Shown one piece after another: positions 48,990-64,000 of a DNA stretch of 64,000 nt. The DNA lies in NCBI RefSeq assembly GCF_028736035.1, contig NZ_CP117866.1:9775001-9839000 (forward strand), in the 5' to 3' direction. The DNA comes from Streptomyces sp. T12 (GTDB lineage Bacteria > Actinomycetota > Actinomycetes > Streptomycetales > Streptomycetaceae). The position numbers and the translations under genes are program-made. The notes below the pieces were generated by a model. That model was given only the letters and a program-made list of their open reading frames with translations, searched no databases and was not told the origin of the DNA. Within the stretch, counting starts at the first letter, position 1. Every line of letters begins with the position of its first letter.

Positions 48990-50414
48990 TCAACGACTCT
49001 GTGCCGTCGCCGAGTCGGCGGTGTCCACCGACTCGTCCTGATCGTGCGGCTCACCTGTCGCCGCCGGTGGCTCGGCCGTTCCGGGCCGTGCGTGCCGACG
49101 TGTGGCCAGGGTCCAGGCGGTGGCGGCGAGTGCTGTCACCGTGAGGGCGGCAAGCATCGGCGTGGTGTGGGATCCGGCGCTGTCGGCTGCCCGGGCGATG
49201 GGGTTGGGCAGACCGAGGCGGTCGGCCAGCCAGCCGAGCGCCGCCGTGCCGGTGAGCAGGGCGCCGACCAGTCGCAGCATGGGCTGGATGCGCAGGCGGG
49301 CGAGGACCAGCAGCGAGGGCAGTGCCAGGCAGACCAGCAGGAGCTGGACCAGCTCGATGCCGAGGTTGAAGCCGAGAAGACTGGTCACGAGCTGTCCGGT
49401 GGACAGGTGCATCTCGGCCAGGACGAAGGAGAACGCCATGCCGTGACCGAGCCCGAAGACCCCGGCCACGAGTGCCTCACGGCCGGGGAACAGCGGGCGG
49501 ATCGCGTGGACGGCGCCGATGAGGATACTCAGCGCGATGAACGCCTCGACCGGCCAGCCCGGGATGTCCAGGCGGCCGAGCGCGGTCGCGGCCAGCGCGA
49601 CGGAGTGCCCGACGGTGAAGGCGAGCGTGATGCGGCCGATCCGGGCGAGCGCGGACCGCGCGCCCACCAGCCCGCTCCACCGTCCTGCGGTGGCCGCGAG
49701 CGGCGCGGGCAGGAGCAGGATCAGCAGGAAGAGCAGATGGTCGGTGCCGGTGAGGATGTGGTCGCCGCCCAGCTTCACCATGGCGAGGAAGCCGCGCCAG
49801 GCGCTGCCTTCGCCGAGGTCGACCTTCAGGGCCGGGACCTTCATGGTCCGGGTGTCGACCCGGATGGTGCCGACCTGGGTGGCGCCCGCGTCGTCGACCT
49901 GCCCGGCGACCCAGTCCTGACGTACCGTCACCAGGGCTGTGTGTGTGATGACTTGATGCACGATGACGTCGTAGTCGAAGGTGAAGTGCCGTACGTCGGC
50001 GCCGGTCGGCGGGGTGAGCACGGCCTCGGCGATCAGCTCGCGGTAGGGGCCGGTGGAGGTCTGCTCGGTGCTGCTGAGGCTCAGGTCGCCGACGCTGATC
50101 TGCCAGGCTCTGCCCTCGGTGGTGGCCGGGTGGATGTGCCGGCCGAGGTAGGTCCGGATGGCCTTGGCCCTTTTGGACAACGTGGCCTCGGTGGTGTCGC
50201 TCAGGTCGATCCCGCTGGCCCGGGAGAAGTCGTCGGTCGGCAGTTCCAGCCGTGCGCTCACCGACGCCTGGTACACATCGAGTTCCACCACGGAGTGCGG
50301 CATCGGATGCGCGGCGGCCGGCGACGCCCCGAGGAGGAGCGCCGCCGGTACCGCGATCGCGATCCCGGCCACCAGACGCAGTGCTGTGGTCAGCCAGTTT
50401 CGCGGTCCGGTCAT
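48990..50414 (-). CDS. HupE/UreJ-type membrane protein
   Basis: A 474-residue protein. The signal peptide ends ASPAAAHPMPHS. An extracytoplasmic domain of about 200 residues is followed by seven or so membrane segments. GGDHILTGTDHLLFLLILLL carries the His/Asp motif of the HupE_UreJ_2 family, and VFGLGHGMAFSFVLAEMHLS another His pair. Family members are thought to move nickel or other metals. ATG 50414 overlaps the stop of the DUF3500 gene by 4 bases (ATGA), so the two form an operon. Confidence 0.88.
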   Translation of the reverse strand: MTGPRNWLTTALRLVAGIAIAVPAALLLGASPAAAHPMPHSVVELDVYQASVSARLELPTDDFSRASGIDLSDTTEATLSKRAKAIRTYLGRHIHPATTEGRAWQISVGDLSLSSTEQTSTGPYRELIAEAVLTPPTGADVRHFTFDYDVIVHQVITHTALVTVRQDWVAGQVDDAGATQVGTIRVDTRTMKVPALKVDLGEGSAWRGFLAMVKLGGDHILTGTDHLLFLLILLLPAPLAATAGRWSGLVGARSALARIGRITLAFTVGHSVALAATALGRLDIPGWPVEAFIALSILIGAVHAIRPLFPGREALVAGVFGLGHGMAFSFVLAEMHLSTGQLVTSLLGFNLGIELVQLLLVCLALPSLLVLARLRIQPMLRLVGALLTGTAALGWLADRLGLPNPIARAADSAGSHTTPMLAALTVTALAATAWTLATRRHARPGTAEPPAATGEPHDQDESVDTADSATAQSR

Positions 50415-51664
50415 GAGAAGGAGAACTCGCTGCCGTAGTCGCGGGTGTGGTCCCGGTACACGGTGTGGTAGTGGACCTTGTCCCGGTAGACGAAGCCGTT
50501 CTGGCAGACGAACTCGATCCACACGCTCGGGCCGTCGATGCGGACGTAGTCGCCCTGGGTGTCCAGGCCCGTACCGCCGGAGTATCCGACGTAGGTCTGG
50601 TTCAGCTCACGCGCGTACGTCTTCATGAGCTTCTTCGCGGTGGCGTCGTCCACGCCCGCGACCCAGGGGTGGATCGCCGCCAGGACCAGCTTCTGCTGCT
50701 TGGGCGACAGCTCGCTGGCCCTGATGCCCTCCTTGGTCTCCGGGAACTGGCCGTCCTCGCCCGGGCCGAGCAGCACGTCGCTGAACGACTCGGACAGCTT
50801 GGCGGTGGCCAGCTGCTCGGTGCTCAGGCTGCTGGTCAGCTTCAGCAGGCCGTCGCGGAAGTTCGCCAGCGGCGCGTAGGTGGTGCCGTCGTCCGCGGTC
50901 CAGCTGGTGGGCTCCACGCCGGTGAAGAACGGGCTTGCGCCGGAGACCTTGCCGTCCTTGTAGGTGATGTTCACGGCGAGGTGGTGGCCGCCGAAGTGCA
51001 GCTGCCAGGTGCCGTCGACCGACGGGGTGCCCAGGAACGCCAGGAAGTAGATGTCGCTGCCGTACCCGCCGCCCGCGCCGCCGCCTGTGCCGCCGGACGG
51101 CGGGGCTCCCGTCGGGGCGTCACTGGGCGTGGTGCTCGGGTCCGCCGAGGCGTCGCTCGATGCGCTGGCCGTCGGCGCGGCAGGCCCGGAGCCGGAGCTC
51201 TCCGCCGCGGCCAGCTGGTCGTCGGCCAGGAGGGTCTGCAGGACGTGCTCGTAGCCGGTGTCCTTGCCGGTCCCCAGGGCCACCTTCAGCACGTTCTTCA
51301 GGGCGGCCAGCTGCACCTCGCTCAGCGAGCCGGTCTGGATGCCGGGCCGGCAGGACCCGCCGCACGGCAGGTTCGACCAGGCGGTCGCGTTCTCCTGGCT
51401 GAAGTCCAGCAGTGTCTCCGCCTGCTGGTCGGAGTCCAGCGTGTTCAAGAACGTGTTGGCCGCGCTGACCACGGCCGCGACGCCGTTGGCCTTCTTGTTG
51501 ACCGGGTAGTGCACACCCGTAGCCGACTTCTGTGCGTCGCCGGTGGTCGTCGCGGCGTTGGCCGCCACGAACCCGCCCCCGACGAGGACCGCACCGGCGG
51601 CCACGCCGGCTATGACTCGCCAAGTCCGTCGGTTACGGGCCCGACTTGTTCTCTGCTTGCTCAT
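50411..51664 (-). CDS. DUF3500 secreted protein
   Basis: A 417-residue protein with an N-terminal membrane or signal helix (VIAGVAAGAVLVGGGFVAAN) and a Ser/Pro/Gly-rich linker near residues 165-210. The linker splits the DUF3500 domain: TAWSNLPCGGSCRPG before it and YFLAFLGTPSVDGTWQLHFGGHH after it. The function is unknown; conserved His and Cys residues hint at metal or haem chemistry. ATG 51664 is preceded by AGGGAG. Coupled to the HupE-like gene. Confidence 0.85.
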   Translation of the reverse strand: MSKQRTSRARNRRTWRVIAGVAAGAVLVGGGFVAANAATTTGDAQKSATGVHYPVNKKANGVAAVVSAANTFLNTLDSDQQAETLLDFSQENATAWSNLPCGGSCRPGIQTGSLSEVQLAALKNVLKVALGTGKDTGYEHVLQTLLADDQLAAAESSGSGPAAPTASASSDASADPSTTPSDAPTGAPPSGGTGGGAGGGYGSDIYFLAFLGTPSVDGTWQLHFGGHHLAVNITYKDGKVSGASPFFTGVEPTSWTADDGTTYAPLANFRDGLLKLTSSLSTEQLATAKLSESFSDVLLGPGEDGQFPETKEGIRASELSPKQQKLVLAAIHPWVAGVDDATAKKLMKTYARELNQTYVGYSGGTGLDTQGDYVRIDGPSVWIEFVCQNGFVYRDKVHYHTVYRDHTRDYGSEFSFS

Positions 51665-51749
51665 GAACACTCCCTGAAGACAAGGGTGGGGGGACGTTGC
51701 GCCGACTCTGCGGGCGGCGGCGTCCAGAACACGCGCGCGCTGGATGAGA

Positions 51750-51779: not shown

Positions 51780-51966
51780 CGCGCGGGCCTCCGCGCCTGT
51801 CCCGATTGGGCGGCGGTCACCCCGTATGCGGGAAATATGCTGTGCTCATTGACAGGTTGCTCTCAGCGCGGCTTCAGCCGCCGAAACGGGCGCGCGTCAC
51901 GACAAGGCCGCCGTCCCGGCAAAGCCGGCGTAGGCGGCGAGGGGCGAGGGCCGGCTCCCCCTGCTC

Positions 51967-52750
51967 TCAGCCCTGGACGGCGGAGCTGGCCACGCCTTGG
52001 ACGAGCCAGCGCTGGAAGAAGGCGAAGACCATCAGGACGGGCAGGACGAGCAGGACGCCGAAGGCGAGGATCTGGCCCCGGTCGGGGGGGCTGCTGGCCC
52101 TGAAAGACGCTGATCTCCAGGGGGAGGGGGCGCACCGAGGGGTCGGACACCATCAGGACCGGCCACAGGAAGGAGCCCCACTGGATGAGGAAGGTGAGGA
52201 TCGCGACCGAGGCGAACACCGGCTTCGACATCGGGACGATGATCGCGAAGAAGGTGCGCCAGGGTCTGGCGCCGTCCAGCCGGGCGGCTTCCTCGATGCT
52301 CTCCGGGATCCTCCGGAAGAACGTGTTGCGCCGGCCGTTGAACATGTGGAAGAGCGGGACGGCCACCGACTCGAACGGGATCAGCATCAGCAGCAGGACG
52401 AGGGTGAAGACGGCTTCCCGGCCGCGCCACTTCAGCCGCGACAGGCCGTAAGCCGCCATCGAGTTGACGAACAGTCCGCCCGTCACCACCACGAACGCCA
52501 GCAGCACCGAGACGCCCATGAACTGCCAGAAGCAGCCGGTGCTGTCGGAGTTCAGACTGTCGAGCACGGCGGAGTAGTTGTCGAACGGCAGACGGGTGGG
52601 CAGAAAACCGGACAGTCCGTTCAGGACCTCGTCGGACGGCTTGAGGCTGCCCAGGAAGAGATGGAGGACGGGCAGGACGAAGACGAACGCCAGGACGCTC
52701 AGGACGGTGTAGTCGAGGACGCGGCGGACGGGGGTGCGGGTCATGGCCAT
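51967..52750 (-). pseudogene. Degraded sugar ABC permease, MalG type
   Basis: It starts normally (MAMTRTPVRRVLDYTVLSVL) and keeps the EAA loop (PESIEEAARLDGARPWRTFF). About 25-30 residues just before that loop are missing (FHMFNGRRNTFFRRIPE). Near 52085 a run of seven G shifts the frame; the proper ending, ILAFGVLLVLPVLMVFAFFQ to the stop at 51967, is in another frame. It is probably non-functional. Confidence 0.78.
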
Positions 52751-53722: not shown

Positions 53723-55015
53723 TCAGGCGAGCGTGACCTCGACCGGCAGCTTCTTGATGCCGTTGACGAAGTTCGAGCGGACGCGCGGCACGTCGCCGGC
53801 CAGGCGGATGTCGGCGATCCGCGGGATCAGTTCCTCGAACATGATGCGGATCTCGGTGCGAGCGAGCAGGTTGCCCAGGCACAGGTGGGGGCTGCCCTTG
53901 CCGAAGGTGACGTGGTCGTTGCTCCGGCGGGCCACGTCGAAGTCGTACGGGTTGCCGAAGACCTCCTCGTCGCGGTTGCCGGAGGCATACCACATGACGA
54001 CCTTGTCGCCCTCCTTGATCCGCTTGCCCCCGAGTTCGACGTCCTGGGTCGCGGTGCGGCGGAAGTGGTAGACGGGGGAGGCCCAGCGCAGGAACTCCTC
54101 GACCGCCGTGGGGATCAGAGAGGGGTCGTCCTTGAGGCGGGCCAGTTGCTCGGGGTGCTGGAGGAGGGCCAGCATGGAGTGGGAGATGGTGTGCCGGGTG
54201 GTCTCGTTGCCGGCCACCACCAGGAGCAGGAAGTAGTTGTCGAAGTCCTGCGCGGACAGCGGGATGCCGTCGCGGGGGGTGGTGTTGACGAGCTTGGACA
54301 CCAGGTCGGTGCCGTCGCCGCCGCGCCGCTGCCGGGCCAGCTCCCGGCCGTACTCGAAGACCTCCAGCGAGGCGGGGGAGCGGAAGGGCAGATCGCGGTA
54401 CTTCTCGCTCTCGGCGCTGTGCAGGAGCACGTCGGCGTAGTCGGGGTCGGTGTTGCCGATGATCCGGTTGCCCCAGTCGATGAGCTGTTGGTTGTCCTCG
54501 GGCGGTACGTCGAGGAGCCGGGCCAGCACGTTGATGGGGAAGTCCGCGGAGACCTCCTTGACGAAGTCGAACGTGCCCTTCGCCAGGGCCGCGTCCAGGG
54601 TCCTGGCGGTCAGGCCGCGCAGGAAGTCGGTGTAGCTGTTGATGACCCCGGCGCCGAACTGGCGCTGGATGACGCTGCGCAGGGCTCGGTGGCGGACGCC
54701 GTCCAGCTCCAGGATCGAGGCGCGTTTGCGGATCTGGTCCTCGTCCACCTCTTCCAGGTTCACGAACTTGGTGGAGGTGAAAGTCTCGGCGTCCCGGTCG
54801 ACACGTGCGATGTCCGCGTGCCGGGTCACCGCCCAGAAGCCGGAGTTGGGGGCCTGCTCGGGCTGCCAGTGCACCGGGTCCTCGTGGCGCAGCGTGTGGA
54901 ACATCCGCCAGGGGGTGATCCCGTCGGTGAAGTTGTCCAGGTCGGCGAGATCGACCTGCGCCAGCGGCAGCGGCTCGCGCACATCGGCGGCGGAGAGGTG
55001 GGTCGGGGTGGTCAT
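53723..55015 (-). CDS. Cytochrome P450
   Basis: A 430-residue soluble bacterial P450. The I-helix AGNETT is at 268-273 and the K-helix ExxR at Glu307-Arg310. The haem loop FGKGSPHLCLG has Cys379 as iron ligand; the extra residue before His matches the GPHxCLG type of several mycobacterial P450s. It lies 17 bases after the glutamine-synthetase-like gene in the same operon. The divergent operon opens with ferredoxin and ferredoxin reductase, its probable electron partners. The substrate is likely the amine or aromatic compound handled by the cluster. ATG 55015 has GAGGAG. Confidence 0.94.
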   Translation of the reverse strand: MTTPTHLSAADVREPLPLAQVDLADLDNFTDGITPWRMFHTLRHEDPVHWQPEQAPNSGFWAVTRHADIARVDRDAETFTSTKFVNLEEVDEDQIRKRASILELDGVRHRALRSVIQRQFGAGVINSYTDFLRGLTARTLDAALAKGTFDFVKEVSADFPINVLARLLDVPPEDNQQLIDWGNRIIGNTDPDYADVLLHSAESEKYRDLPFRSPASLEVFEYGRELARQRRGGDGTDLVSKLVNTTPRDGIPLSAQDFDNYFLLLVVAGNETTRHTISHSMLALLQHPEQLARLKDDPSLIPTAVEEFLRWASPVYHFRRTATQDVELGGKRIKEGDKVVMWYASGNRDEEVFGNPYDFDVARRSNDHVTFGKGSPHLCLGNLLARTEIRIMFEELIPRIADIRLAGDVPRVRSNFVNGIKKLPVEVTLA

Positions 55016-55032
55016 GGTCGGGCTCCTCGGCG

Positions 55033-56382
55033 TCACAGGTGGTAGGCGTACTCGTTGAACTCCCAGTCGGTGACGTGCCGTTGGAAGCGTTCGACCTCGT
55101 TGCGCTTGTAGGTGAGGTAGGAGGTGGTGAAGTCCTTCCCGAGCAGCCCGGCCAGGTCGGTGTCGGCCTCCAGGGCGTCGAGCGCGGTGGGCAGGTCCAT
55201 CGGCAGCACGGCCGCCTTGGCGGGGTCGTAGCCGTAGCCCTCCAGAGGGGCGGGGGGTTCCTCTCCGGCGAGGACGCCCAGGAGCGCGGCGGCGGCGGTG
55301 GCGGCGACGGCCAGGTAGGGGTTGGCGCTCGCGTCCCCGAGGCGCAGTTCCAGCCGGGCGCCGGAGCCCCGCTCGGGCGGGACGCGGACCATCGTGCTCC
55401 GGTTGTCCAGGCCCCAGTCGATCAGCCAGGGGGCGAGCGTGTCGGGGCCGAAGCGCTTGTAGGAGTTCACCGTCGGGTTGAGCAGTGCCGCCAGGGCGGG
55501 TGCGTGGGCCAGTACGCCCGCGATCGCGTGCCGGGCGGTGGCCGACAGGCCGTGGGTGCCGTTGGGGTCGTCGAAGGTGTTGCGGCCGTCGGGGCCGGTG
55601 CAGGAGAGGTGCAGGTGGAAGCCGGAGCCGCCGGCGTCGTTGAAGGGTTTCGCCATGAAGGTGGCGAGCCTGCCCTCACGCCGGGCCAGCTCCTTGATCG
55701 CGGCCTTGAAGCGGAACGCCCGGTCGGCGGCCGAGAGGGCTTCGGAGTGGAGCAGGTTGATCTCGAACTGTCCGCCGTCGAACTCGTGGTTCCCGCTCAC
55801 CACGCCGAGGCCCAGGCCGTGGACGTGCCGAAGGGTGCGCAGCAGGTGGTTGTCGGGGTCGGCGCGCAGGCCGGCCGTGTAGACGACGCCGGGGTCGGCG
55901 CCGTAGCGCTGCCAGCCGCCCGCCGGATCCGGGTCGCACAGGAAGTACTCCAGCTCGGGTCCGACGATCGGGCTCAGTCCGTTCTCCTCGCACCGGCCGA
56001 GGACCGAGCGCAGCAGATCGCGCGGTGACTCGGGGGCCGGAACCCCGGTGGCCGGGTCGACGACGTCGGCGAGACAGGCGGCGACGCCGGGCTCCCAGGG
56101 GAGCCTGGTCAGGGTGGACAGGTCCGGCCGTACGCAGATGTCCGGCAGGCCGGCGTCGAGGCCGCCGCCGACCGGGACCACGTCACCCTGGGGACTGGTG
56201 TGGTAGACGGCACGGCAGAAGGCGAGGCCGTGTTCCACGGCCCGGGGCAGCGCCTCGACCAGCACGTCCCGGGCCCGGTCCGTGCCGATCAGGTCGGGAT
56301 ACGTCACCCGCACCACGTCGATGCCGTCGGCGGTGAGCCGCTCCATGTGGCGGCGGACTTCTGACAGGTCTTGAGCGCTCAC
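55033..56382 (-). CDS. Glutamine-synthetase-like gamma-glutamyl ligase
   Basis: A 449-residue protein of GS fold. Motifs include VGPELEYFL, GNHEFDGGQFEINL, FNDAGGSGFHLHLS, NSYKRFGPD and ERGSGARLELRLGDASANPY. It lacks the adenylylation Tyr loop of GlnA and groups with GlnA3/GlnA4, PuuA and IpuC-like enzymes that add glutamate to amines. Here it probably gamma-glutamylates an amine substrate or toxic intermediate. GTG 56382 has GAGGAG. First gene of the minus arm, controlled from the operator-bearing promoter. Confidence 0.88.
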   Translation of the reverse strand: MSAQDLSEVRRHMERLTADGIDVVRVTYPDLIGTDRARDVLVEALPRAVEHGLAFCRAVYHTSPQGDVVPVGGGLDAGLPDICVRPDLSTLTRLPWEPGVAACLADVVDPATGVPAPESPRDLLRSVLGRCEENGLSPIVGPELEYFLCDPDPAGGWQRYGADPGVVYTAGLRADPDNHLLRTLRHVHGLGLGVVSGNHEFDGGQFEINLLHSEALSAADRAFRFKAAIKELARREGRLATFMAKPFNDAGGSGFHLHLSCTGPDGRNTFDDPNGTHGLSATARHAIAGVLAHAPALAALLNPTVNSYKRFGPDTLAPWLIDWGLDNRSTMVRVPPERGSGARLELRLGDASANPYLAVAATAAAALLGVLAGEEPPAPLEGYGYDPAKAAVLPMDLPTALDALEADTDLAGLLGKDFTTSYLTYKRNEVERFQRHVTDWEFNEYAYHL

Positions 56383-56438
56383 CGTTGTCTCCTCGGGCGG
56401 CTGTGGGGACATCTTCCGGACCGTCGGTCCGGCAGTCA

Positions 56439-56478
56439 TTTGAAGCCAAACGGTATGGAGAGGGTGACTCTCCCGCAA
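56439..56478 (-). promoter_or_regulatory. Promoter and operator for the GS-like/P450 operon
   Basis: Minus-strand TTGCGG (56478-56473) and TACCGT (56455-56450) are 17 bases apart. TTTGAAGCCAAACG (plus-strand reading, 56439-56452) overlaps the -10 box. The same sequence is at the divergent promoter and a variant at the permease gene. Confidence 0.65.
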
Positions 56479-56515
56479 GGGGGTGAGGCCAAGAATTTAT
56501 CCATCCGGATAGGTA

Positions 56516-56560
56516 TTGACCAGAGGGTGGGGTCTACCTATCTTGTTTGAAGCCAAACGA
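56516..56560 (+). promoter_or_regulatory. Promoter and operator for the ferredoxin operon
   Basis: TTGACC (56516-56521), 17 bases, TATCTT (56539-56544), then at once GTTTGAAGCCAAACGA (56545-56560), whose core GTTTG-AAGC-CAAAC is a perfect 5-base inverted repeat. A protein bound here would cover the start site. It lies 80-125 bases before the ferredoxin ATG. Confidence 0.72.
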
Positions 56561-56639
56561 GTTCGGGGTGCGGTCTCCCCTGTGATCACCGCACCCCTTT
56601 GCCTCCCCCTTCGTTCCCGCACCTTCAGGAGGACCGGCC

Positions 56640-56828
56640 ATGAAGGTCGTCGTCGACATGAACAAGTGCCAGGACCACGGCCAGTGCGTCTTCGCGGCCC
56701 CGGACGTCTTCTCCATGGACGACACCGGGCACCTGCTCTACGTCTCCGACCCCGACGACGCACTGCGCGACGAGGTCGAGGAGGCCGCCGACGTGTGTCC
56801 GTTGCAGGCCATCCGGATCGAGGGCTGA
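56640..56828 (+). CDS. Small ferredoxin, P450 partner type
   Basis: A 62-residue ferredoxin with CQDHGQC and a later CP (DVCPLQAIRI). The second Cys of the usual 4Fe-4S motif is replaced by His, the pattern of [3Fe-4S]-type ferredoxins that serve P450s in actinobacteria. ATG 56640 has AGGAGG. First gene of the plus arm, five bases before the reductase gene. Confidence 0.93.
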   Translation: MKVVVDMNKCQDHGQCVFAAPDVFSMDDTGHLLYVSDPDDALRDEVEEAADVCPLQAIRIEG

Positions 56829-56833
56829 GCCCC

Positions 56834-58042
56834 ATGACCGCAACGATCGTCGTCGCGGGCGGCTCGATGGGCGGGCTGCGGGCCGCCGAGCAACTGCGTG
56901 CGGCGGGTTGGACCGGGGCCGTCACCGTCGTCGGCGACGAGCCCCACATGCCCTACAACAGGCCTCCCCTGTCCAAGGAGGTCCTGGCCGGCAAGGCTCC
57001 CTTCGAGTCGCTCGCCTTCACCCCGAGGGCGGCCGCCGCCGACGTGGAATGGCGGCTCGGCACGAAGGTCGTCTCCGCCCGGCTCGCCGAGCGGACCGTC
57101 ACACTCGACGACGGCTCGACGCTGTCGTACGACGGTCTCGTCGTCGCCACCGGCATGCGCCCCCGGCGTCTGCGCTGCCCCGGCCCGCTCACCGGCCGTC
57201 ACACGGTCCGCTCCCTCGCCGACGCCCAGGGACTGCGGGACGAGCTCACCCGTCCCGACGCGCGCGTGGTCGTGGTGGGTGCCGGGTTCATCGGCTGCGA
57301 AGTCGCCGCCACGGCCGTAGGGCTGGGCGTGCGTGAGGTGACCGTCGTCGATCCGCTGCCCCTGCCCATGGCCGGACCGCTCGGCGAACTGCTCGGCCGG
57401 GCGTTGCTGCGACGGCACGAGGAGCGCGGGGTGCGCTTCCGGCTCGGCACCTCGGTCGCCGGATTCGAGGGCGAGGACCGGGTCACCGGGGTCGTCCTGG
57501 GTGACGGCGGCGTGCTGCCCGCCGATGTGGTGGTCGAGTCGGTCGGCTCGGTCGCCAACGTCGAGTGGCTGGCGGGCAACGACCTCGACCTGTCCGACGG
57601 AGTGCTCACCTGCGGGCGGTTGCGGGTCGGCGGTAGGCCGGAGGTGGTCGCCGTCGGCGATGTCGCCCGCTTCCCCAACGCCCGCTACGACGCCGTGCCC
57701 CGCCGGGTCGAACACTGGTCGATCCCGACCGATACCGCCAAGCACGCGGCGAAGACCCTCGCCGCCCATCTCGCCGGTGCCGAGACCGACCCGGCGCCCT
57801 TCGCGCCCCTGCCCACCTTCTGGAGCGACCAGCACGACTTCCGGTTGCAGTCCTTCGGAGCGCCGGCGCTCGGCCTCGACGACGTCCGAGTGCTCGACGG
57901 CGACCCGTCGGGAGACGTCCTGGTCGGCTACCACACCGGCGGCCTACTGGTCGGTGTCGTCGCGCTCGGCGGCCAGGCCGCCGCGATGGGCGCCGCCCGC
58001 TACCGCGCCCAGCTGCTGAAGCAGCCCGCCCTCACCGCGTAA
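56834..58042 (+). CDS. NAD(P)H:ferredoxin reductase
   Basis: A 402-residue two-dinucleotide-domain flavoprotein. FAD motif VVAGGSMGGLRAAEQL, EPHMPYNRPPLSK, NAD motif VVVGAGFIGCEVA, and VAVGDVARFPN. It should pass electrons from NAD(P)H through the ferredoxin to the P450 at 53723. The middle residue of the first glycine motif is Ser, still typical of this group. Confidence 0.92.
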   Translation: MTATIVVAGGSMGGLRAAEQLRAAGWTGAVTVVGDEPHMPYNRPPLSKEVLAGKAPFESLAFTPRAAAADVEWRLGTKVVSARLAERTVTLDDGSTLSYDGLVVATGMRPRRLRCPGPLTGRHTVRSLADAQGLRDELTRPDARVVVVGAGFIGCEVAATAVGLGVREVTVVDPLPLPMAGPLGELLGRALLRRHEERGVRFRLGTSVAGFEGEDRVTGVVLGDGGVLPADVVVESVGSVANVEWLAGNDLDLSDGVLTCGRLRVGGRPEVVAVGDVARFPNARYDAVPRRVEHWSIPTDTAKHAAKTLAAHLAGAETDPAPFAPLPTFWSDQHDFRLQSFGAPALGLDDVRVLDGDPSGDVLVGYHTGGLLVGVVALGGQAAAMGAARYRAQLLKQPALTA

Positions 58043-58054
58043 GGAACCTCCGTC

Positions 58055-58861
58055 ATGTCCTCAGTCCGTGGTTACCTCTTCCCCAAGACGGCGAGCGGTG
58101 CCTCGTCTCTGATTCCCTCGCCGCCGTGGCGCTACTCCGGTGACCTGCTCACCGTCGAGTACCGGACCGACCCGGCACGGGTGCGTGAACTGCTGCCCGA
58201 GCCACTGGAGCCGGCCGACGAGGATCCGGGTGCGGTCGCCCTGATCTGGGCCGACTGGCAGTCGTGCGCCGGGGCCGGTGACGAGCTGCTCGACCCTGTG
58301 CTCTCCCAGTACAAGGAGGCGTTCGCGGTCGTCCGCTGCAAGTACCGGGGGCAGACCTACACGCGGTGCGTGTACATCTGGGTCGACAAGGACTTCGCCA
58401 TCGCGCGCGGTCTGCACCAGGGCTATCCGAAGAAGCTCGGATCCATCCACCAGACGCGGCCCCATCCCTACGGCCCCGCGCCGCGCATCGAGGCGGGGGC
58501 GCGATTCGGCGCGACGCTCGCCGCCGCGGACCGGCGTCTCGCCCAGGCGGTGGTCACGCTGCGGGAGCCGTCGGAGACGAACGGGTTCGTCAACGCGCAC
58601 CCCATGGCGCACCACCGGTGGCTGCCGTCGATCGAGAACGGCAAGGGGCTCGCGCTGGACGAGCTGATCGAGTCCGGGGCCGCGTCCTTCGAGGGCGGCC
58701 GACCGTGGGTGGGCGAAGCGGAGTTGGAGCTGTTCGAGGCGCCCACCGAGGAGCTGGCCCGGCTGGAGATCCGGGAACCCATCGCCGCGTACTACCGCCA
58801 GGTCGGCGTGGTGTGGGACGGCGGCCGGCTGCTGGAGTCCGGTACGTCCGGAGCCGAGTAA
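58055..58861 (+). CDS. Acetoacetate-decarboxylase-like protein
   Basis: A 268-residue ADC-family protein. Lys126-Lys127 in GYPKKLGSIH matches the Schiff-base Lys pair (115/116) of clostridial acetoacetate decarboxylase. RGQTYTRCVYIWVDKDFAI is the conserved sheet. Many ADC-like proteins are not decarboxylases of acetoacetate; in a ring-cleavage operon this one may process a keto-acid intermediate. It starts 12 bases after the reductase gene. Confidence 0.82.
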   Translation: MSSVRGYLFPKTASGASSLIPSPPWRYSGDLLTVEYRTDPARVRELLPEPLEPADEDPGAVALIWADWQSCAGAGDELLDPVLSQYKEAFAVVRCKYRGQTYTRCVYIWVDKDFAIARGLHQGYPKKLGSIHQTRPHPYGPAPRIEAGARFGATLAAADRRLAQAVVTLREPSETNGFVNAHPMAHHRWLPSIENGKGLALDELIESGAASFEGGRPWVGEAELELFEAPTEELARLEIREPIAAYYRQVGVVWDGGRLLESGTSGAE

Positions 58862-58895
58862 CCCCCTCACATCGCACAGGACTTGGAGACCGGAC

Positions 58896-60359
58896 ATGAC
58901 CGAGCACACCCTCACGGTGGCCGGGGTCGCCATCGACACCCGGCACTGGATCGGCGGCGAACGCGTCGCCTCCACCGAGACGTTCACCGACGTCTCACCG
59001 ATCGACGGCCGCGCGATCGGTGAGATCGCCCGGGGCACCGTCACGGAGGCCGCCGCCGCCGTCGCCGCCGCCAAGGCCGCCTTCCCCGCCTGGGCCGCCA
59101 CCTCCCGAGCCGAACGCGCCCGCCTCCTGCACGCCATCGCCGACGGGGTCGAGAAGCGGATCGAAGAGTTCGCCATTGTGGAGACCACCGACAACGGGGC
59201 GCTGCTGCGTTCGCATCGGCGCGGTGTCATGCCCCGGGTCGCGCACAACTTCCGCTTCTTCGCCGACTGGTTGCTGAAGCTGGAGCACGAGGACTTCGAG
59301 ACGCGCGGGCACGGCAATCACGTCTCGTGGGACCCGGCCGGGCCCTGCGTGCTCATCACGCCGTGGAACGCGCCCCTGATGCTGGCCACCTGGAAGGTCG
59401 CCCCCGCCCTCGCCGCCGGCGACACCGTCGTCCTCAAGCCTGCCGAGTGGTCCCCGCTGACCGCGTCCCTGCTCGCGGACATCGCGGCCGAGGCCGGGCT
59501 GCCGGCCGGGGTGCTGAACGTCGTGCAGGGCTACGGCTCCGAGGTCGGCGACCCCCTCACCTCGCATCCGGACGTGCGGCGCATCAGCTTCACCGGCTCG
59601 GTGCCGACGGCACAGCGGATCGCCGCCTCGGCGGCCGCGAATCTCACGCCCCTGAGCCTCGAACTCGGCGGCAAGTCACCGCTGTTGGTGTTCGCCGACG
59701 CCGACCTCGACCTCGCCGTCGACCTCGCCGTGGAGCAGTACGACAACGCCGGGCAGGTGTGCCTGGCCGCGACGCGCCTGCTGGTCGAGGAGCCGGTGGC
59801 GAAGGAGTTCACCCAGCGGTTCGTGGCGAAGGCCACGGCGCTGAAGCAGGGCGACCCACGCGACGAGGCCACCGACATCGGGCCCACCATCCACACCCGG
59901 CAACTGGAGAAGATCGACGGCTTCGTGCAGCGTGCCATCGCGGGCGGGGCGCGGGCTGTCATCGGCGGGCATCGCAAGGACGGCCTGTACTACGCGCCGA
60001 CGCTGCTCACCGACGTCGCCCAGGACAGCGAGATCGTCCAGGAGGAGGTCTTCGGTCCGGTCCTGACCCTCCAGACCTTCACCACCGAGGAGGAAGCCGT
60101 CCGCCTCGCCAACGACACCCGCTTCGGCCTGGCCGCCACCCTCGCCACCGGGGACCCCGGGCGCGCCGAACGCGTCACCGCACAGCTGGTCGCCGGCACG
60201 GTCTGGGTCAACTGCTTCTTCGTACGCGACCTCCGGGCACCCTTCGGCGGCTCCCGCCACTCCGGCGTCGGCCGCGAGGGCGGCACCTGGAGCTTCGACT
60301 TCTACTGCGACGTCAAGAACACCGTGACCGCGCCGAGCGGATGGAGCAACCATGGGTGA
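58896..60359 (+). CDS. Aldehyde dehydrogenase, HpaE-like
   Basis: A 487-residue NAD-dependent ALDH. Catalytic Cys289 (AGQVCLA), Glu256 (LELGGKS) and Asn158 (ITPWNAP). It resembles 5-carboxymethyl-2-hydroxymuconate semialdehyde dehydrogenases, which oxidise the product of homoprotocatechuate 2,3-cleavage. The dioxygenase gene right after it (8-base overlap) supports this. ATG 58896. Confidence 0.87.
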   Translation: MTEHTLTVAGVAIDTRHWIGGERVASTETFTDVSPIDGRAIGEIARGTVTEAAAAVAAAKAAFPAWAATSRAERARLLHAIADGVEKRIEEFAIVETTDNGALLRSHRRGVMPRVAHNFRFFADWLLKLEHEDFETRGHGNHVSWDPAGPCVLITPWNAPLMLATWKVAPALAAGDTVVLKPAEWSPLTASLLADIAAEAGLPAGVLNVVQGYGSEVGDPLTSHPDVRRISFTGSVPTAQRIAASAAANLTPLSLELGGKSPLLVFADADLDLAVDLAVEQYDNAGQVCLAATRLLVEEPVAKEFTQRFVAKATALKQGDPRDEATDIGPTIHTRQLEKIDGFVQRAIAGGARAVIGGHRKDGLYYAPTLLTDVAQDSEIVQEEVFGPVLTLQTFTTEEEAVRLANDTRFGLAATLATGDPGRAERVTAQLVAGTVWVNCFFVRDLRAPFGGSRHSGVGREGGTWSFDFYCDVKNTVTAPSGWSNHG

Positions 60360-61278
60360 GATCGTCGGGGCGGGCCTCCTCGCCCACGTCCCCACCATCG
60401 TCCTCCCGCGGCAGGAGCGCCTGGAGCTGAACGAGGGCAAGGAGATCACCCTCGTCACCGGCCTGGAACAGCTGCGCAGGGACGTCTTCGAGCGCGACGA
60501 CTACGACACCGTCGTCGTCCTCGACTCGCACTGGGCGACGACGGTCGAGTTCGTCGTCACCGCCCAGCAGCGCCGGGCGGGACTGTTCACCTCCGAGGAA
60601 CTGCCGCGCGGGATGTGCCGGATGCCGTACGACTTCCCCGGCGACCCCGAACTCGCCCGGAACATCGAGAGGTTCGCCGACCGGCACGGCACCTGGATCA
60701 CCGCGATCGACGACGACCACCTGCCGATCTACTACGCCACCATCAACCTCTGGAAGTTCCTGGGGGAGGGGCTGGCGGACAAGCGGTGGGTGACCATCGG
60801 GGTCTGCCAGACCGGCGACATGGAGGACCACCTCCGGCTCGGCCGGGCGCTCGCCGACGGCATCGCCGCCACCCCGGGCCGCCGCGTCCTGCTGATCGCC
60901 TCCGGCGCCCTCTCCCACACCTTCTGGCCCCTGCGCGAGCTGCGCGACCACGAGGCCAGCGACCCGGTGCACATCTTCACCCCCGAGGCCCGCGAGGCCG
61001 ATCACGAGCGGATCGCCTGGTTCAAGGAGGGCCGTCACGACAAGGTCCTCGACACCATGGACGAGTTCTGGAAGCACAAGCCCGAGGCGAGGTTCTTCCA
61101 CTACCTGATGATGGCCGGCGCCCTCGGCGAGCAGGCCTGCGTGGCCAGGGCCCGCCAGTACGGGGAGTACGAGAACTCGATCGGCACCGGCCAGGTCCAC
61201 CTGTGGTTCGACCGTCCGGCCGACGGCTGGACCGGCACCGGCCTGCCCGCCCCGCGCACCCCGCACAGCAGCGTCTAG
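60352..61278 (+). CDS. Class III extradiol dioxygenase, HpaD/LigB type
   Basis: A 308-residue ring-cleavage dioxygenase. His12 (LLAHVP) and His60 (LDSHW) fit the two iron-binding His of LigB-type enzymes; Glu260 (GALGEQ) is the likely third ligand and His189 (GALSHT) the likely acid/base. E. coli HpaD belongs to this group and opens 3,4-dihydroxyphenylacetate. ATG 60352 overlaps the ALDH end. Confidence 0.87.
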   Translation: MGEIVGAGLLAHVPTIVLPRQERLELNEGKEITLVTGLEQLRRDVFERDDYDTVVVLDSHWATTVEFVVTAQQRRAGLFTSEELPRGMCRMPYDFPGDPELARNIERFADRHGTWITAIDDDHLPIYYATINLWKFLGEGLADKRWVTIGVCQTGDMEDHLRLGRALADGIAATPGRRVLLIASGALSHTFWPLRELRDHEASDPVHIFTPEAREADHERIAWFKEGRHDKVLDTMDEFWKHKPEARFFHYLMMAGALGEQACVARARQYGEYENSIGTGQVHLWFDRPADGWTGTGLPAPRTPHSSV

Positions 61279-61299
61279 CCATACCTCTGGAGCCCCGCC

Positions 61300-62145
61300 A
61301 TGCCCGAATACCGCCGCATCCTCCTCGACGGCGCAGCCGTCCAGGTCACCGTCGACGGGGACGAACTCCTCGCCGGAGACGGCCGCCGCGTCAAGACCGA
61401 CGAGGCGCACCACCTGCCTCCGGTCGTCCCGTCCAAGGTGATCGCCGTCCACCTGAACCACCAGAGCCGGGTCGACGAGTTCCGGATCGACCTGCCCGAC
61501 ACACCCACGTACTTCCACAAGCCGACCTCGTCCCTCAACTCCCACCAGGGCGCCGTTGTCCGTCCCGAGGGCTGCAAATGGCTCAACTACGAGGGCGAGG
61601 TCGCCATCGTCATCGGCAGGACCGCGAGGAACATCTCCCCGGCACAGGCGGGGGAGTACATCGCCGGCTACACCGTCGCCAACGACTACGGCCTGCACGA
61701 CTTCCGTGACACCGACGCCGGCTCCATGCTCCGCGTCAAGGGCTCGGACACGCTCTGCCCGCTGGGTCCGGGACTCGTCACCGACTGGGACTTCCGCGGC
61801 AAGTACCTGCGCACCTACGTCAACGGCCAGGTGGTGCAGGACGGTTCGACCGACGAGATGAAGTGGGACATGCACTACCTCGTCGCCGACATCGCCCGCA
61901 CCATCACCCTCCACCCCGGCGACGTGCTGCTGTCGGGCACCCCCGCCAACTCCCGTCCCGTCCGGCCCGGCGACGTCGTCGAGGTCGAGGTCGAGGGACT
62001 GGGCCGCCTGACCAACCACATCGTCACCGGCCCCACCCCGATCCGCACCGATGTCGGCGCCCAGCCCACCGAGTCCGAGGAGGTGCTGTCCACCGCGCTC
62101 GGCGGCGACTGGGAGTTCCGCGGCATCCGTGCTCCCCGACGGTAG
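61300..62145 (+). CDS. Fumarylacetoacetate hydrolase-family protein, HpaG-like
   Basis: A 281-residue FAH-fold protein. Metal-site motifs NYEGEVAIVIG (Glu-x-Glu type) and YTVANDYGLHDFRD, the lid FHKPTSSL and the ending GDVLLSGTPANSRPVRPGD. HpaG-type members decarboxylate or isomerise the diacid after ring opening and aldehyde oxidation. It starts 21 bases after the dioxygenase gene. The hydratase and aldolase expected next are not in view. Confidence 0.86.
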   Translation: MPEYRRILLDGAAVQVTVDGDELLAGDGRRVKTDEAHHLPPVVPSKVIAVHLNHQSRVDEFRIDLPDTPTYFHKPTSSLNSHQGAVVRPEGCKWLNYEGEVAIVIGRTARNISPAQAGEYIAGYTVANDYGLHDFRDTDAGSMLRVKGSDTLCPLGPGLVTDWDFRGKYLRTYVNGQVVQDGSTDEMKWDMHYLVADIARTITLHPGDVLLSGTPANSRPVRPGDVVEVEVEGLGRLTNHIVTGPTPIRTDVGAQPTESEEVLSTALGGDWEFRGIRAPRR

Positions 62146-62188
62146 GCGCCGAGACCCGCGGCGGTACCCGGCGGGTAGGGTCGCGACC

Positions 62189-62815
62189 ATGACCGAGCCC
62201 GCCGCGACCTCGCAGGAACCCGGAGCCCACGCACGCAAGCGGCTGGGGTACGGGGAGGGGCGCGAGGCCCTGCTCAAGGCCGCGGTCCGGGTCGTGGGGC
62301 GGCGCGGGCTGCGCCACCTGACCTACCGCGCGGTCGCCGAGGAGGCCGGTGTCACCCACGGTCTCGTCGTCCACCACTTCGGCTCCCGCGACGCGCTGAT
62401 CGAGGAGTCCCTCGCCTACGCCGTGCGCACCAGCCTGAGCAGCAGCCTGCTGGAGCCCGGCACCGGCCGGCCCGAGGACTTCGTCGGCGGGCTGACCGCC
62501 ATGGTGGAGGACGACGCCGATCTCCAGGCGTACCAGTACGAGCTGCTGCTGGAGGCCCGCCGCAGCCCGGAGCTGCTGCCGCAGGTGCGTGAACTGTACG
62601 ACGAGTACTTCGGCGCCTCCCGGCGCGAACTGGACCGCATCCTCCCCGAGGGAGCCTCCCCGGCCCTCAACCGGCTGGTGTTCGCCGCGCTGGACGGCCT
62701 CGTACTGCACCAGCTGACCGGTGTAGGAGACCGCGCGGACACCGAGGCGGCCCTCGCCGAACTGCGCTCCGTGCTGCGCACGCTGGGCGGGACGCAGCCG
62801 GGGAACCGCGACTGA
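62189..62815 (+). CDS. TetR-family regulator
   Basis: A 208-residue regulator. The HTH lies at about residues 25-70: LLKAAVRVVGRRGLRHLTYR, then VAEEAGVTHGLVVHHFGSR. The C-terminal ligand domain is not recognised. It is the last gene of the plus arm and a good candidate to bind the TTTGAAGCCAAACG sites, making the cluster self-regulated. ATG 62189. A hairpin terminator follows. Confidence 0.9.
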   Translation: MTEPAATSQEPGAHARKRLGYGEGREALLKAAVRVVGRRGLRHLTYRAVAEEAGVTHGLVVHHFGSRDALIEESLAYAVRTSLSSSLLEPGTGRPEDFVGGLTAMVEDDADLQAYQYELLLEARRSPELLPQVRELYDEYFGASRRELDRILPEGASPALNRLVFAALDGLVLHQLTGVGDRADTEAALAELRSVLRTLGGTQPGNRD

Positions 62816-62830
62816 GCCTGCCCGACCCGG

Positions 62831-62858
62831 CCCCCGTCGCGCCCGCGGCGGGGGTTTT
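62831..62858 (+). terminator. Rho-independent terminator after the TetR gene
   Basis: CCCCCGTCGCG and CGCGGCGGGGG form an 11-base stem (one G-U pair) with a short loop, followed by TTTT. It starts 15 bases after the TetR stop and ends the ferredoxin operon. Confidence 0.85.
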
Positions 62859-62956
62859 CGCTGCCCGCGGTGCCGTACGTGCGTCGGTTTCCCCGGCGTG
62901 AATTCTTCAGCCCAGCCCCTTGCCAGATGGATAGTTCCGGCCCACGATGAGGCAAC

Positions 62957-62974
62957 TCGTTTGGCTCAAAACGA
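62957..62974 (+). promoter_or_regulatory. Third copy of the cluster operator, before the permease
   Basis: TCGTTTGGCTCAAAACGA. Read on the minus strand this gives TTTTGAGCCAAACG, differing by two bases from TTTGAAGCCAAACG at the two other promoters. It lies 34 bases before the permease start. No sure -35/-10 pair was found. Confidence 0.6.
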
Positions 62975-63007
62975 AATCTCTCCCCTTTCCCTCAGCAGGT
63001 GATCCGA

Positions 63008-64000
63008 GTGGACAGTCAGACAGTCGACACCTCTTCGCAGACAGCAGAGGGCACCCGCCCCACTGCGACTCTCAAACGCAACGCCCTGGGTGTCCTCGGC
63101 ATCCTCTTCTTCGTCCTGTCCGCCCAGGCACCGCTGACCGGCATCGCGGGCGCCGTCCCCATCGCCGTCGCGGTGGGCAACGGCCCCGGAGTCCCGGCCG
63201 CCTACGCCGTCGCCGGCGCGGTGATCCTGCTGTTCTCGGTGGGCTTCGTCGCCATGGGACGGCACGTGGTGAACGCGGGCGCCTTCTACACGTACATCGG
63301 CAAGGGCCTCGGCCGGACCACCGGCAGCGCCAGCGCGGCCGTGGCCCTGTTCGCCTACTGCACGGTCCAGGCCGCGATGTACGGGCTGTACGGGGCCACC
63401 GTCAGCGGTCTGGTCGAGCATTACTCCGGTGTCCACATCGTCTGGTGGATCTGGGCGCTGGCCACCATGGTCGTCGTCCAGGTACTGGGTGCCGCCGGCA
63501 TCGAGATCGGCGCCAAGGTGCTCGCCGTGTTCGTGCTGGCCGAGTTCAGCATCCTGCTTGTCTTCGCCCTGGTCACCCTGGTGAAGGGCGGTGGGCCCGA
63601 GGGCCTCGCCGTCACCGAGACCTTCTCGCCGGGCGCCGTGCTGGACGGCGCGCCAGGCGTGGCCCTGATGTTCGCCGTCGCGTCGATGTTCGGCTTCGAG
63701 GCCACCGCCATCTACGGCGAGGAGGCCCGCGAGCCCCACAAGACCGTGCCCCGGGCGACCTACCTGTCAGTGGCCGTGGTCACCGGCTTCTTCGCCTTCG
63801 TCTCCTGGATGCTGATCTCCGCGTACGGGCCCTCGAAGGCCACCGCGGCCGCGGGCCAGGCGCTGGAGAGCGGCGACTCCACGCTGTTCGTCTTCGCGCC
63901 GATCGCCGATCAGTTCGGGGGCTGGGTCAACGACATCCTGCCGATCCTGCTGGCCACCTCCCTCTTCGCAGGCATCCTCGCCTTCCACAACTCGGCCAAC
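63008..64000 (+). CDS. APC-family amino acid/amine permease (C-terminus cut off)
   Basis: The first 331 residues of an APC transporter; the gene runs past the window. LGVLGILFFVLSAQAPLTGI is the first helix, NAGAFYTYIGKGLG the family motif, and FGFEATAIYGEEAREPHKTV follows. About eight membrane segments are visible. The shared operator suggests it imports the amine or amino acid degraded by the cluster. GTG 63008 has AGCAGG upstream. Confidence 0.87.
   Translation, partial: MDSQTVDTSSQTAEGTRPTATLKRNALGVLGILFFVLSAQAPLTGIAGAVPIAVAVGNGPGVPAAYAVAGAVILLFSVGFVAMGRHVVNAGAFYTYIGKGLGRTTGSASAAVALFAYCTVQAAMYGLYGATVSGLVEHYSGVHIVWWIWALATMVVVQVLGAAGIEIGAKVLAVFVLAEFSILLVFALVTLVKGGGPEGLAVTETFSPGAVLDGAPGVALMFAVASMFGFEATAIYGEEAREPHKTVPRATYLSVAVVTGFFAFVSWMLISAYGPSKATAAAGQALESGDSTLFVFAPIADQFGGWVNDILPILLATSLFAGILAFHNSAN

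Follow-up and report, generated by a model that had tools for sequence, protein, structure and literature searches.

A glutamine synthetase-like ligase, a cytochrome P450 and ring-cleavage enzymes linked in one Streptomyces cluster: a candidate route for aryl-ethylamine catabolism

In the genome of Streptomyces sp. T12 (11.46 Mb in two contigs, with Streptomyces as close relatives), a stretch of 64,000 nucleotides (contig NZ_CP117866.1, 9775001–9839000; hereafter the window) carries a divergent gene cluster (53723–64000) in which a glutamine synthetase (GS)-like ligase and a cytochrome P450 lie beside enzymes resembling those of homoprotocatechuate ring cleavage. Do these two arms belong together and, if so, what do they degrade? 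We propose, with a probability of roughly 55%, that the cluster serves the catabolism of aryl-ethylamines (tyramine, dopamine and relatives), to which glutamate would be attached first and then kept through ring cleavage. Gene families, linkage and a shared palindrome are read from the sequence, and from these we infer the substrate, the order of the steps, the chemistry and the regulator that binds. Positions are numbered along the window and continued past 64000 for the downstream genome.

Two divergent transcription units occupy 53723–64000, with all the named genes in good coding frames. The leftward one consists of the GS-like ligase followed by the P450, overlapping by 4 bases, and the rightward one of genes coding, in this order, for a ferredoxin, an FAD reductase, a protein of the acetoacetate decarboxylase (ADC) fold, an HpaE-like aldehyde dehydrogenase (ALDH1), a LigB-type dioxygenase, an HpaG-like FAH protein, a TetR regulator and an APC permease. 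An earlier annotation made from the letters alone (the sequence-only reading) had listed this whole set, and all of it is present; the extent it gave to the cluster holds for 53723–64000 but not at the end, where a PuuC-like aldehyde dehydrogenase (ALDH2) and a PuuD-like gene follow beyond the window edge.

To what extent the two arms travel together was assessed in 295 Streptomyces genomes, searched with a LigB profile and with the GS-like protein, which matched 72 and 67 of them, respectively. After exclusion of seven genomes with low-scoring LigB matches (E ~1e-118 to 1e-122; a split made after viewing the scores), the ligase was found in 65/65 genomes with a cluster-type LigB against 2/230 of the others (Fisher p ~1e-63, not corrected for shared ancestry), so that 65 of the 67 ligase genomes also carry a cluster-type LigB; with the seven included, the ligase is present in 65/72 LigB genomes. 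The ligase lies within 15 kb of LigB in 63/68 LigB copies, and in the remaining five it is found on another contig (four) or 22 kb apart (one). Neighbourhoods were then compared in 80 LigB loci of named genomes, the best 80 of 251 and hence biased to close relatives (12 of these stretches are shorter than 19 kb), gene presence being scored by identity thresholds set by the analyst. ADC and ALDH1 were found in all 80 of these close loci, FAH in 79, GS, ferredoxin and reductase in 74 each, TetR, ALDH2 and PuuD in 71 each, P450 and APC in 68 each, MarR in 43 and an LLM oxidoreductase in 18. Because the gene block is conserved in relatives, a chance arrangement is excluded and, as judged from this linkage, the two arms are one unit. 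Linkage in relatives had been proposed as a check by the sequence-only reading, whose combination of ligase, P450 and a homoprotocatechuate-type route in one amine-degradation cluster is thus supported.

The seven low-scoring LigB matches (L144–L150, in 7/295 Streptomyces genomes) form a separate group, an unlinked paralogue 55–59% identical and without the rest of the cluster: no other core gene was seen in 6/7 neighbourhoods, and only a 28% P450 match in L150. In L149 an open reading frame starting, by eye, like asparagine synthase lies just 5' of the paralogue.

Outside Streptomyces, the LigB profile matched 33 of 396 Actinomycetota genomes (36 in all), and the neighbourhoods of 20 of these matches were inspected. 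In these distant loci, with LigB identity of 41–56% and a shuffled gene order, we found ALDH1 in 16, GS in 15, P450 in 14, ADC and MarR in 11 each, FAH and a pyridoxal phosphate (PLP) decarboxylase in 10 each, and an APC-like permease and LLM in 7 each. One of them, L129, holds almost the full set, its P450 and PuuD genes overlapping by up to ten bases, and a Novosphingobium plasmid (Pseudomonadota) combines P450, GS, two aldehyde dehydrogenases, ADC, FAH, LigB and MarR in ~10 kb. This recurrence, together with a degradative gene order including two aldehyde dehydrogenases, a hydrolase and an uptake-type permease, speaks against a biosynthetic or detoxification cluster that would modify a catechol amine without full breakdown. 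We regard such a role as very improbable, even if the unlinked LigB paralogue in other neighbourhoods and the presence of a condensation-domain gene near the plasmid-borne set of S. lunaelactis are in its favour. Plasmid copies of the cluster were seen in S. canus and S. lunaelactis.

A putative regulatory signal is shared by the two arms. The gap between the GS-like and ferredoxin genes contains two exact copies of CGTTTGGCTTCAAA, and a copy with two mismatches (CGTTTGGCTCAAAA) precedes the permease gene. The palindrome has the consensus GTTYG-N4-CRAAC, of which the ferredoxin-proximal site is the sole occurrence in the window; allowing up to 2 mismatches, the whole genome has 6 sites, 3 of them in the cluster including both exact ones, and a reversed control pattern gives 5. 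Among the 63/80 close loci used for this count (GS and ferredoxin at least 70% identical, plus an APC match), 61 have one or more sites in the gap from GS to ferredoxin and 41 have at least one ahead of APC; a further 26 sites fall elsewhere, many of them, by eye, close to the starts of ALDH2 or MarR/LLM. The 20 distant loci (368 kb) contain 27 palindromes, of which 24, spread over 16/20 loci, stand no more than 250 bases 5' of a core gene, and each of 29 permuted palindromes had at most 1 such upstream place. Weak controls among these are the two permuted palindromes GTYTG and GYTTG, both of which match GTTTG as well; they reach 19 matches in 12 Streptomyces loci versus 23 for the motif. No palindrome was found in the distant loci L121, L134 and L135, and L120 has a single site that does not precede a core gene. 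Two unrelated operons lying side by side are rejected by linkage and shared palindrome. As to the protein that may bind it, the TetR gene named as regulator by the sequence-only reading is indeed there, but it is not the sole candidate: MarR is found in 11/20 distant loci and TetR in none. MarR is preferred for this reason and is most likely, on these gene counts, the candidate regulator acting on both arms via GTTYG-N4-CRAAC.

The ring-cleavage arm resembles the homoprotocatechuate enzymes without being identical to them. The LigB domain scores above its Pfam cut-off (Table 1), its closest solved relative is the 3,4-dihydroxyphenylacetate 2,3-dioxygenase 8iq8, and residues His12, His60, His189 and Glu245 are invariant in 9/9 aligned sequences; two His and the Glu are presumably the iron ligands. 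The FAH protein has HpaG (1gtt) as closest solved relative. The likeness to HpaD, HpaE and HpaG claimed by the earlier annotation is therefore real, while full family membership is not reached, the scores being below the NCBIfam cut-offs. HpaF, HpaH and HpaI had no match among the products of the 12 full genes from P450 to PuuD, the rest of the genome not having been searched for them; no HpaB or HpaC was seen in the cluster, and the only HpaB match genome-wide had 22.6 bits, under the cut-off of 35. With the namesake cut-offs unreached and no HpaB over the cut-off in the genome, a standard homoprotocatechuate operon was rejected.

The ADC-fold protein had been given a decarboxylation role, which the comparison with solved structures does not favour. 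It scores 154–157 bits against MppR and the ADC-like chains 4zbo/6eej, versus 27 and 20 bits against 3bgt and 3bh2, respectively, which we take to be true decarboxylases; its PKK motif aligns with ADC-like chains. A plain acetoacetate decarboxylase was rejected as well (PRK02265, 39.9 bits versus a cut-off of 150), MppR-type relatives being nearer, although the MppR model itself is matched at 173 bits, below its cut-off of 380. Being far nearer the MppR, 4zbo and 6eej chains than 3bgt and 3bh2, the protein likelier has an aldolase/hydratase role than a decarboxylating one, as far as sequence similarity can tell. MppR-related proteins of the ADC fold carry out an aldol condensation of pyruvate with dehydration, the reverse of which is hydration and retro-aldol cleavage. 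Since HpaH and HpaI were not seen in the cluster and this reverse chemistry fits, hydration and retro-aldol cleavage are tentatively assigned to it.

As for the amine arm, the ligase has a GS catalytic domain scoring well above its cut-off (Table 1) and remains under those of GS III (298 bits, cut-off 470) and of gamma-glutamylputrescine synthetase PuuA (254 bits, cut-off 650). At the flap position it reads DTLAP, the Glu being lost, where the host GlnA has GFEAP and a second host GS has GGEAP; the flap Glu is present in none of the other cluster ligases readable at that place (the L129 row was misread). Ordinary glutamine synthesis was rejected as its role, given the lost flap Glu and four other GS genes above 240 bits in the genome. 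The P450 has CYP125MRCA and CYP124 as best solved relatives. Between P450 and PuuD the only oxygenases are the P450 and LigB, with no two-subunit aniline-type dioxygenase beside the ligase, and no DAO-type oxidase gene that would correspond to PuuB was seen.

How might these parts work in sequence? In the Hpa route, HpaD, E, F, G, H and I convert a catechol bearing a CH2COOH side chain to pyruvate, CO2 and succinic semialdehyde. In the Puu route, gamma-glutamyl-4-aminobutanal is the substrate of PuuC and gamma-glutamyl-gamma-aminobutyric acid (gamma-glutamyl-GABA) that of PuuD. By analogy, gamma-glutamyl-dopamine (side chain CH2CH2-NH-gamma-glutamyl) passing through the Hpa steps would yield pyruvate and gamma-glutamyl-4-aminobutanal. 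This product is what PuuC acts on, and the cluster ends in PuuC-like and PuuD-like genes; mainly for this reason we favour a glutamyl group kept through ring fission. In the proposed route, the amine would be imported by the APC permease and converted by the GS-like ligase into a gamma-glutamyl amide, whose tyramine-type ring would be hydroxylated to a catechol by the P450 with its ferredoxin and reductase. LigB would then perform a 2,3-type cleavage of the catechol, adjacent to the side chain, ALDH1 would oxidise the resulting semialdehyde and the FAH protein would isomerise and decarboxylate the product. Hydration and retro-aldol cleavage via a Schiff base by the ADC-fold protein would release pyruvate and gamma-glutamyl-4-aminobutanal, to be oxidised by the PuuC-like ALDH2 to gamma-glutamyl-GABA and finally hydrolysed by the PuuD-like enzyme to GABA and glutamate. 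A single regulator, MarR being the likeliest, would control both arms through GTTYG-N4-CRAAC. The sequence-only reading had offered glutamylation or P450 hydroxylation; both steps are retained here, but not as alternatives, the glutamyl group probably staying on through ring fission. To a wider view we give even odds: glutamate would act as a protecting group from start to end, keeping the catecholamine and its fission product from oxidising or cyclising and being recovered last, the ADC-fold enzyme would replace both hydratase and aldolase, and the genes would make up a single regulon, defined by the operator, throughout Actinomycetota, to which an alphaproteobacterial plasmid set is related.

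Variant loci bear on both the starting compound and the order of steps. Seven Streptomyces loci (L043, L064, L076, L084, L143, L153 and L154) contain a PLP decarboxylase and, within the stretch available (short in L084 and L143), no P450 (0/7). Among 93 Streptomyces-type loci (the 80 close ones and 13 more), 75 have only the P450, 7 only the decarboxylase, none has both and 11 have neither. The decarboxylase of L084 has tyrosine decarboxylase as best NCBIfam match (122 bits, far below the cut-off of 905), with MfnA at 121 bits (cut-off 299); among its closest solved structures, one is named aromatic amino acid decarboxylase and others are, we believe, tyrosine decarboxylases. A simple reading of these gene contents is that P450 loci would start from a phenolic amine and decarboxylase loci from a catechol amino acid (L-DOPA), both arriving at the same catechol amine. 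Tyrosine-decarboxylase-like and DOPA-decarboxylase-related genes in variant loci point to an aryl-ethylamine start. The PLP decarboxylases of the distant loci are of another kind than the Streptomyces ones, eight of them forming one close group. In the host genome four PF00282 PLP decarboxylase genes lie elsewhere (C1:2568095, 3751338, 6065527 and 8724558).

A further variant, L135 (G057:C64), has LigB, ALDH1, FAH, ADC, an ALDH2 relative and MarR beside HpaB, a flavin reductase and an AMP-binding protein, with no GS, P450 or PuuD in its 19.8 kb and no HpaH or HpaI seen nearby. Judged by gene content, 4-hydroxyphenylacetate would feed this apparently amine-free version, which supports a four-enzyme module of LigB, ALDH1, FAH and ADC, with ALDH2 at the end of the route.

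These variants also help to weigh the strongest rival, in which deamination comes first: the P450 would hydroxylate the carbon next to the nitrogen of gamma-glutamyl-dopamine, releasing glutamine and 3,4-dihydroxyphenylacetaldehyde, which ALDH2 would convert to homoprotocatechuate for the meta route to succinic semialdehyde, with the PuuD-like enzyme only rescuing excess amide. The pairing of P450 and GS-like genes in 14 distant loci would suit such a scheme, as would a closest solved LigB relative that acts on homoprotocatechuate and the description, in the accessible part of PMC4539516, of the aniline-degradation amidotransferase as a rescue enzyme. However, the seven P450-less Streptomyces variants, in which the deaminating step would be gone, keep LigB, ALDH1 and mostly the ligase and PuuD, and L135, free of the amine arm, keeps an ALDH2 relative, placing ALDH2 at the route end. 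We consider deamination first unlikely and prefer retention of the glutamyl group.

The same logic could apply to another amine (benzylamine, an aniline-type or a methylated amine), the tag being kept and the end product being gamma-glutamyl-beta-alanine, gamma-glutamyl-glycine or similar. A second P450 is inserted in 14/80 close loci, 13 of them with a second ferredoxin adjoining; FolD occurs in 10 loci, all among these 14, and 7 of them have PurU, which hints, on gene content, that such strains demethylate O- or N-methylated amines. GS-like enzymes can also be broad, NpaA1 acting on several anilines and naphthylamines according to the available text of PMC11335346. Nonetheless, the aromatic-amino-acid-type decarboxylases point to aryl-ethylamines and a C4 product fits PuuC and PuuD best, so that a different amine seems doubtful, even less probable than early deamination. 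In one locus (L172:14672-24918) the add-on comprises second P450, ferredoxin, LLM, FolD, PurU and an aminomethyltransferase-family gene, with a one-carbon or demethylation look; the aminomethyltransferase-family gene is additional in S. canus, whose second P450 matches the solved 8q5j over its full length at 860 bits, a P450 monooxygenase from Streptomyces scabiei according to a figure legend in the review PMC11355015.

Several observations weigh against an aryl-ethylamine route with a retained glutamyl group. No cluster protein scores as high as the curated NCBIfam cut-off for the family it is named after. PuuC likeness is unspecific, the ALDH2 of the amine-free L135 also having PuuC as best match. 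Only 3 of the 20 distant loci have PuuD and only 3 have ALDH2; ADC occurs in 11 and FAH in 10, ferredoxin and reductase in none. Three full-length Streptomyces loci (L086, L142 and L152) lack both P450 and decarboxylase in the stretch covered, the other 8 of the 11 loci with neither gene being short. The decarboxylase of the distant locus L121 has DOPA decarboxylase second best among solved relatives but diaminobutyrate decarboxylase as top NCBIfam match (194 of 900 bits, far below the cut-off). Finally, GoaS enzymes are described in the accessible text of PMC11335346 as having lost both the flap Glu and Asp50', while our ligase keeps the aligned Asp (PDL); with the Glu lost but the Asp kept, it fits the GoaS group, by alignment, only in part.

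Each known system covers a portion of the cluster. The 4-hydroxyphenylacetate/homoprotocatechuate pathway (HpaBCDEFGHI) shares with it HpaD-, HpaE- and HpaG-like proteins in one operon, but here an ADC-fold protein stands instead of HpaF/H/I and ligase, P450 and PuuD-like gene are added. The Puu pathway (PuuA, PuuB, PuuC and PuuD, via gamma-glutamylputrescine) is alike in its GS-like ligase, PuuC-like and PuuD-like enzymes and amino-acid-type permease, and unlike in that no PuuB was seen here and that P450 and ring-cleavage enzymes lie between ligase and PuuC. In mycobacterial cyclic-amine degradation, P450, ferredoxin and reductase genes sit next to a GS-like gene as they do here but, to our knowledge, without a ring-fission arm. 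Aniline and 1-naphthylamine degradation (AtdA, TdnQ and NpaA1; GoaS) shares GS-like activation before oxygenation and an amidotransferase, as described in the accessible parts of PMC4539516 and PMC11335346; there, a dioxygenase system gives a free dihydroxy ring and nitrogen is gone before ring cleavage, whereas here a P450 is present and the tag probably stays. The GlnA4 ethanolamine cluster of Streptomyces (SCO1610–SCO1615) joins a GS-like ligase, an aldehyde dehydrogenase and an amidohydrolase, with a permease added in several species (PMC6529630), but it acts on an aliphatic amine, has no ring cleavage and is regulated by EpuRI. Glutamylation before oxidation is thus already known from aniline, naphthylamine, polyamine and ethanolamine degradation (accessible parts of PMC4539516, PMC11335346 and PMC6529630), and with all gene families known, the combination is a variant on known glutamylation-first amine degradation. 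Streptomyces respond to dopamine and other catechols (PMC9814775), no such cluster being mentioned in the text available. Among the open-licence papers surveyed, mostly at the level of titles and abstract beginnings, none was seen to describe this set of genes or a glutamyl group that stays attached during ring fission, and the titles on gamma-glutamyl-tyramine or gamma-glutamyl-dopamine include none on bacterial catabolism.

The features are collected in Table 1, the start codon of the GS-like gene having been picked by homologue comparison. Upstream of the P450, a DUF3500 protein (50411-51670, minus strand) and an ABC-transporter permease (51863-52750, minus strand) give no sign of cluster membership. 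Downstream, the LLM oxidoreductase may belong to the pathway, relatives at 49–64% identity occurring in 7/20 distant loci. A second class-I glutamine-amidotransferase-type gene, other than PuuD, lies near the cluster in 18/80 close loci, examples of such genes being L129:11291-11965, L132:10404-11147 and L043:5222-6037. Between APC and ALDH2, L013 has a histone-deacetylase-fold protein (L013:14336-15457), perhaps an amide hydrolase for acetylated amines, with relatives in L017 and L018.

Table 1. Features of the cluster and its downstream flank, in window positions (bit scores with cut-offs where given).
Feature	Position	Strand	Support
Cytochrome P450, candidate ring hydroxylase of the (glutamylated) amine	53723..55036	-	PF00067 73 bits
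GS-like ligase, candidate gamma-glutamyl-amine synthetase	55033..56382	-	PF00120 315 bits, cut-off 24
Operator-like site ATTTG-N4-CAAAC, upstream of GS-like gene	56438..56452	-	exact CGTTTGGCTTCAAA
Operator-like site GTTTG-N4-CAAAC, upstream of ferredoxin gene	56545..56559	-	exact CGTTTGGCTTCAAA
P450-type single-cluster ferredoxin, 62 aa	56640..56828	+	PF13370 52.6 bits
FAD-dependent ferredoxin reductase	56834..58042	+	PF07992 194 bits, Reductase_C
ADC-fold protein, MppR type, candidate hydratase/retro-aldolase	58055..58861	+	PF06314 197 bits
ALDH1, HpaE-like semialdehyde dehydrogenase	58896..60359	+	HpaE (NCBIfam) 532 bits, cut-off 638
LigB-type extradiol dioxygenase, HpaD-like	60352..61278	+	PF02900 86 bits, cut-off 26; HpaD_Fe (NCBIfam) 119 bits, cut-off 316
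FAH-family protein, HpaG-like isomerase/decarboxylase	61300..62145	+	HpaG C-terminal (NCBIfam) 210 bits, cut-off 276
TetR-family regulator	62189..62815	+	PF00440 and PF17940
Weaker operator-like site, 28 bases 5' of permease gene	62958..62971	+	CGTTTGGCTCAAAA, 2 mismatches
APC-family permease	62999..64453 (window ends at 64000)	+	PF13520 92.5 bits, full gene
ALDH2, outside window	64511-66001		best NCBIfam match PuuC, 557 bits, cut-off 850
PuuD-like Peptidase_C26, outside window	65998-66702		best NCBIfam match PuuD, 68 bits, cut-off 266; 4-base overlap with ALDH2
MarR gene, outside window	66715-about 67302	-	
LLM oxidoreductase (F420-type), outside window	67346-68299		

If the proposed route is true, 65 of the 295 sampled Streptomyces genomes would carry a path for tyramine- or dopamine-type amines of which we found no description. 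Two textbook pathways would be joined through one intermediate, gamma-glutamyl-4-aminobutanal, an aromatic neurotransmitter-type amine being converted into an intermediate of the Puu route, and glutamylation would play the part of a protecting group while the aromatic ring is opened. ADC-fold aldolases would gain a catabolic role, and the gene set could serve in the removal of biogenic amines.

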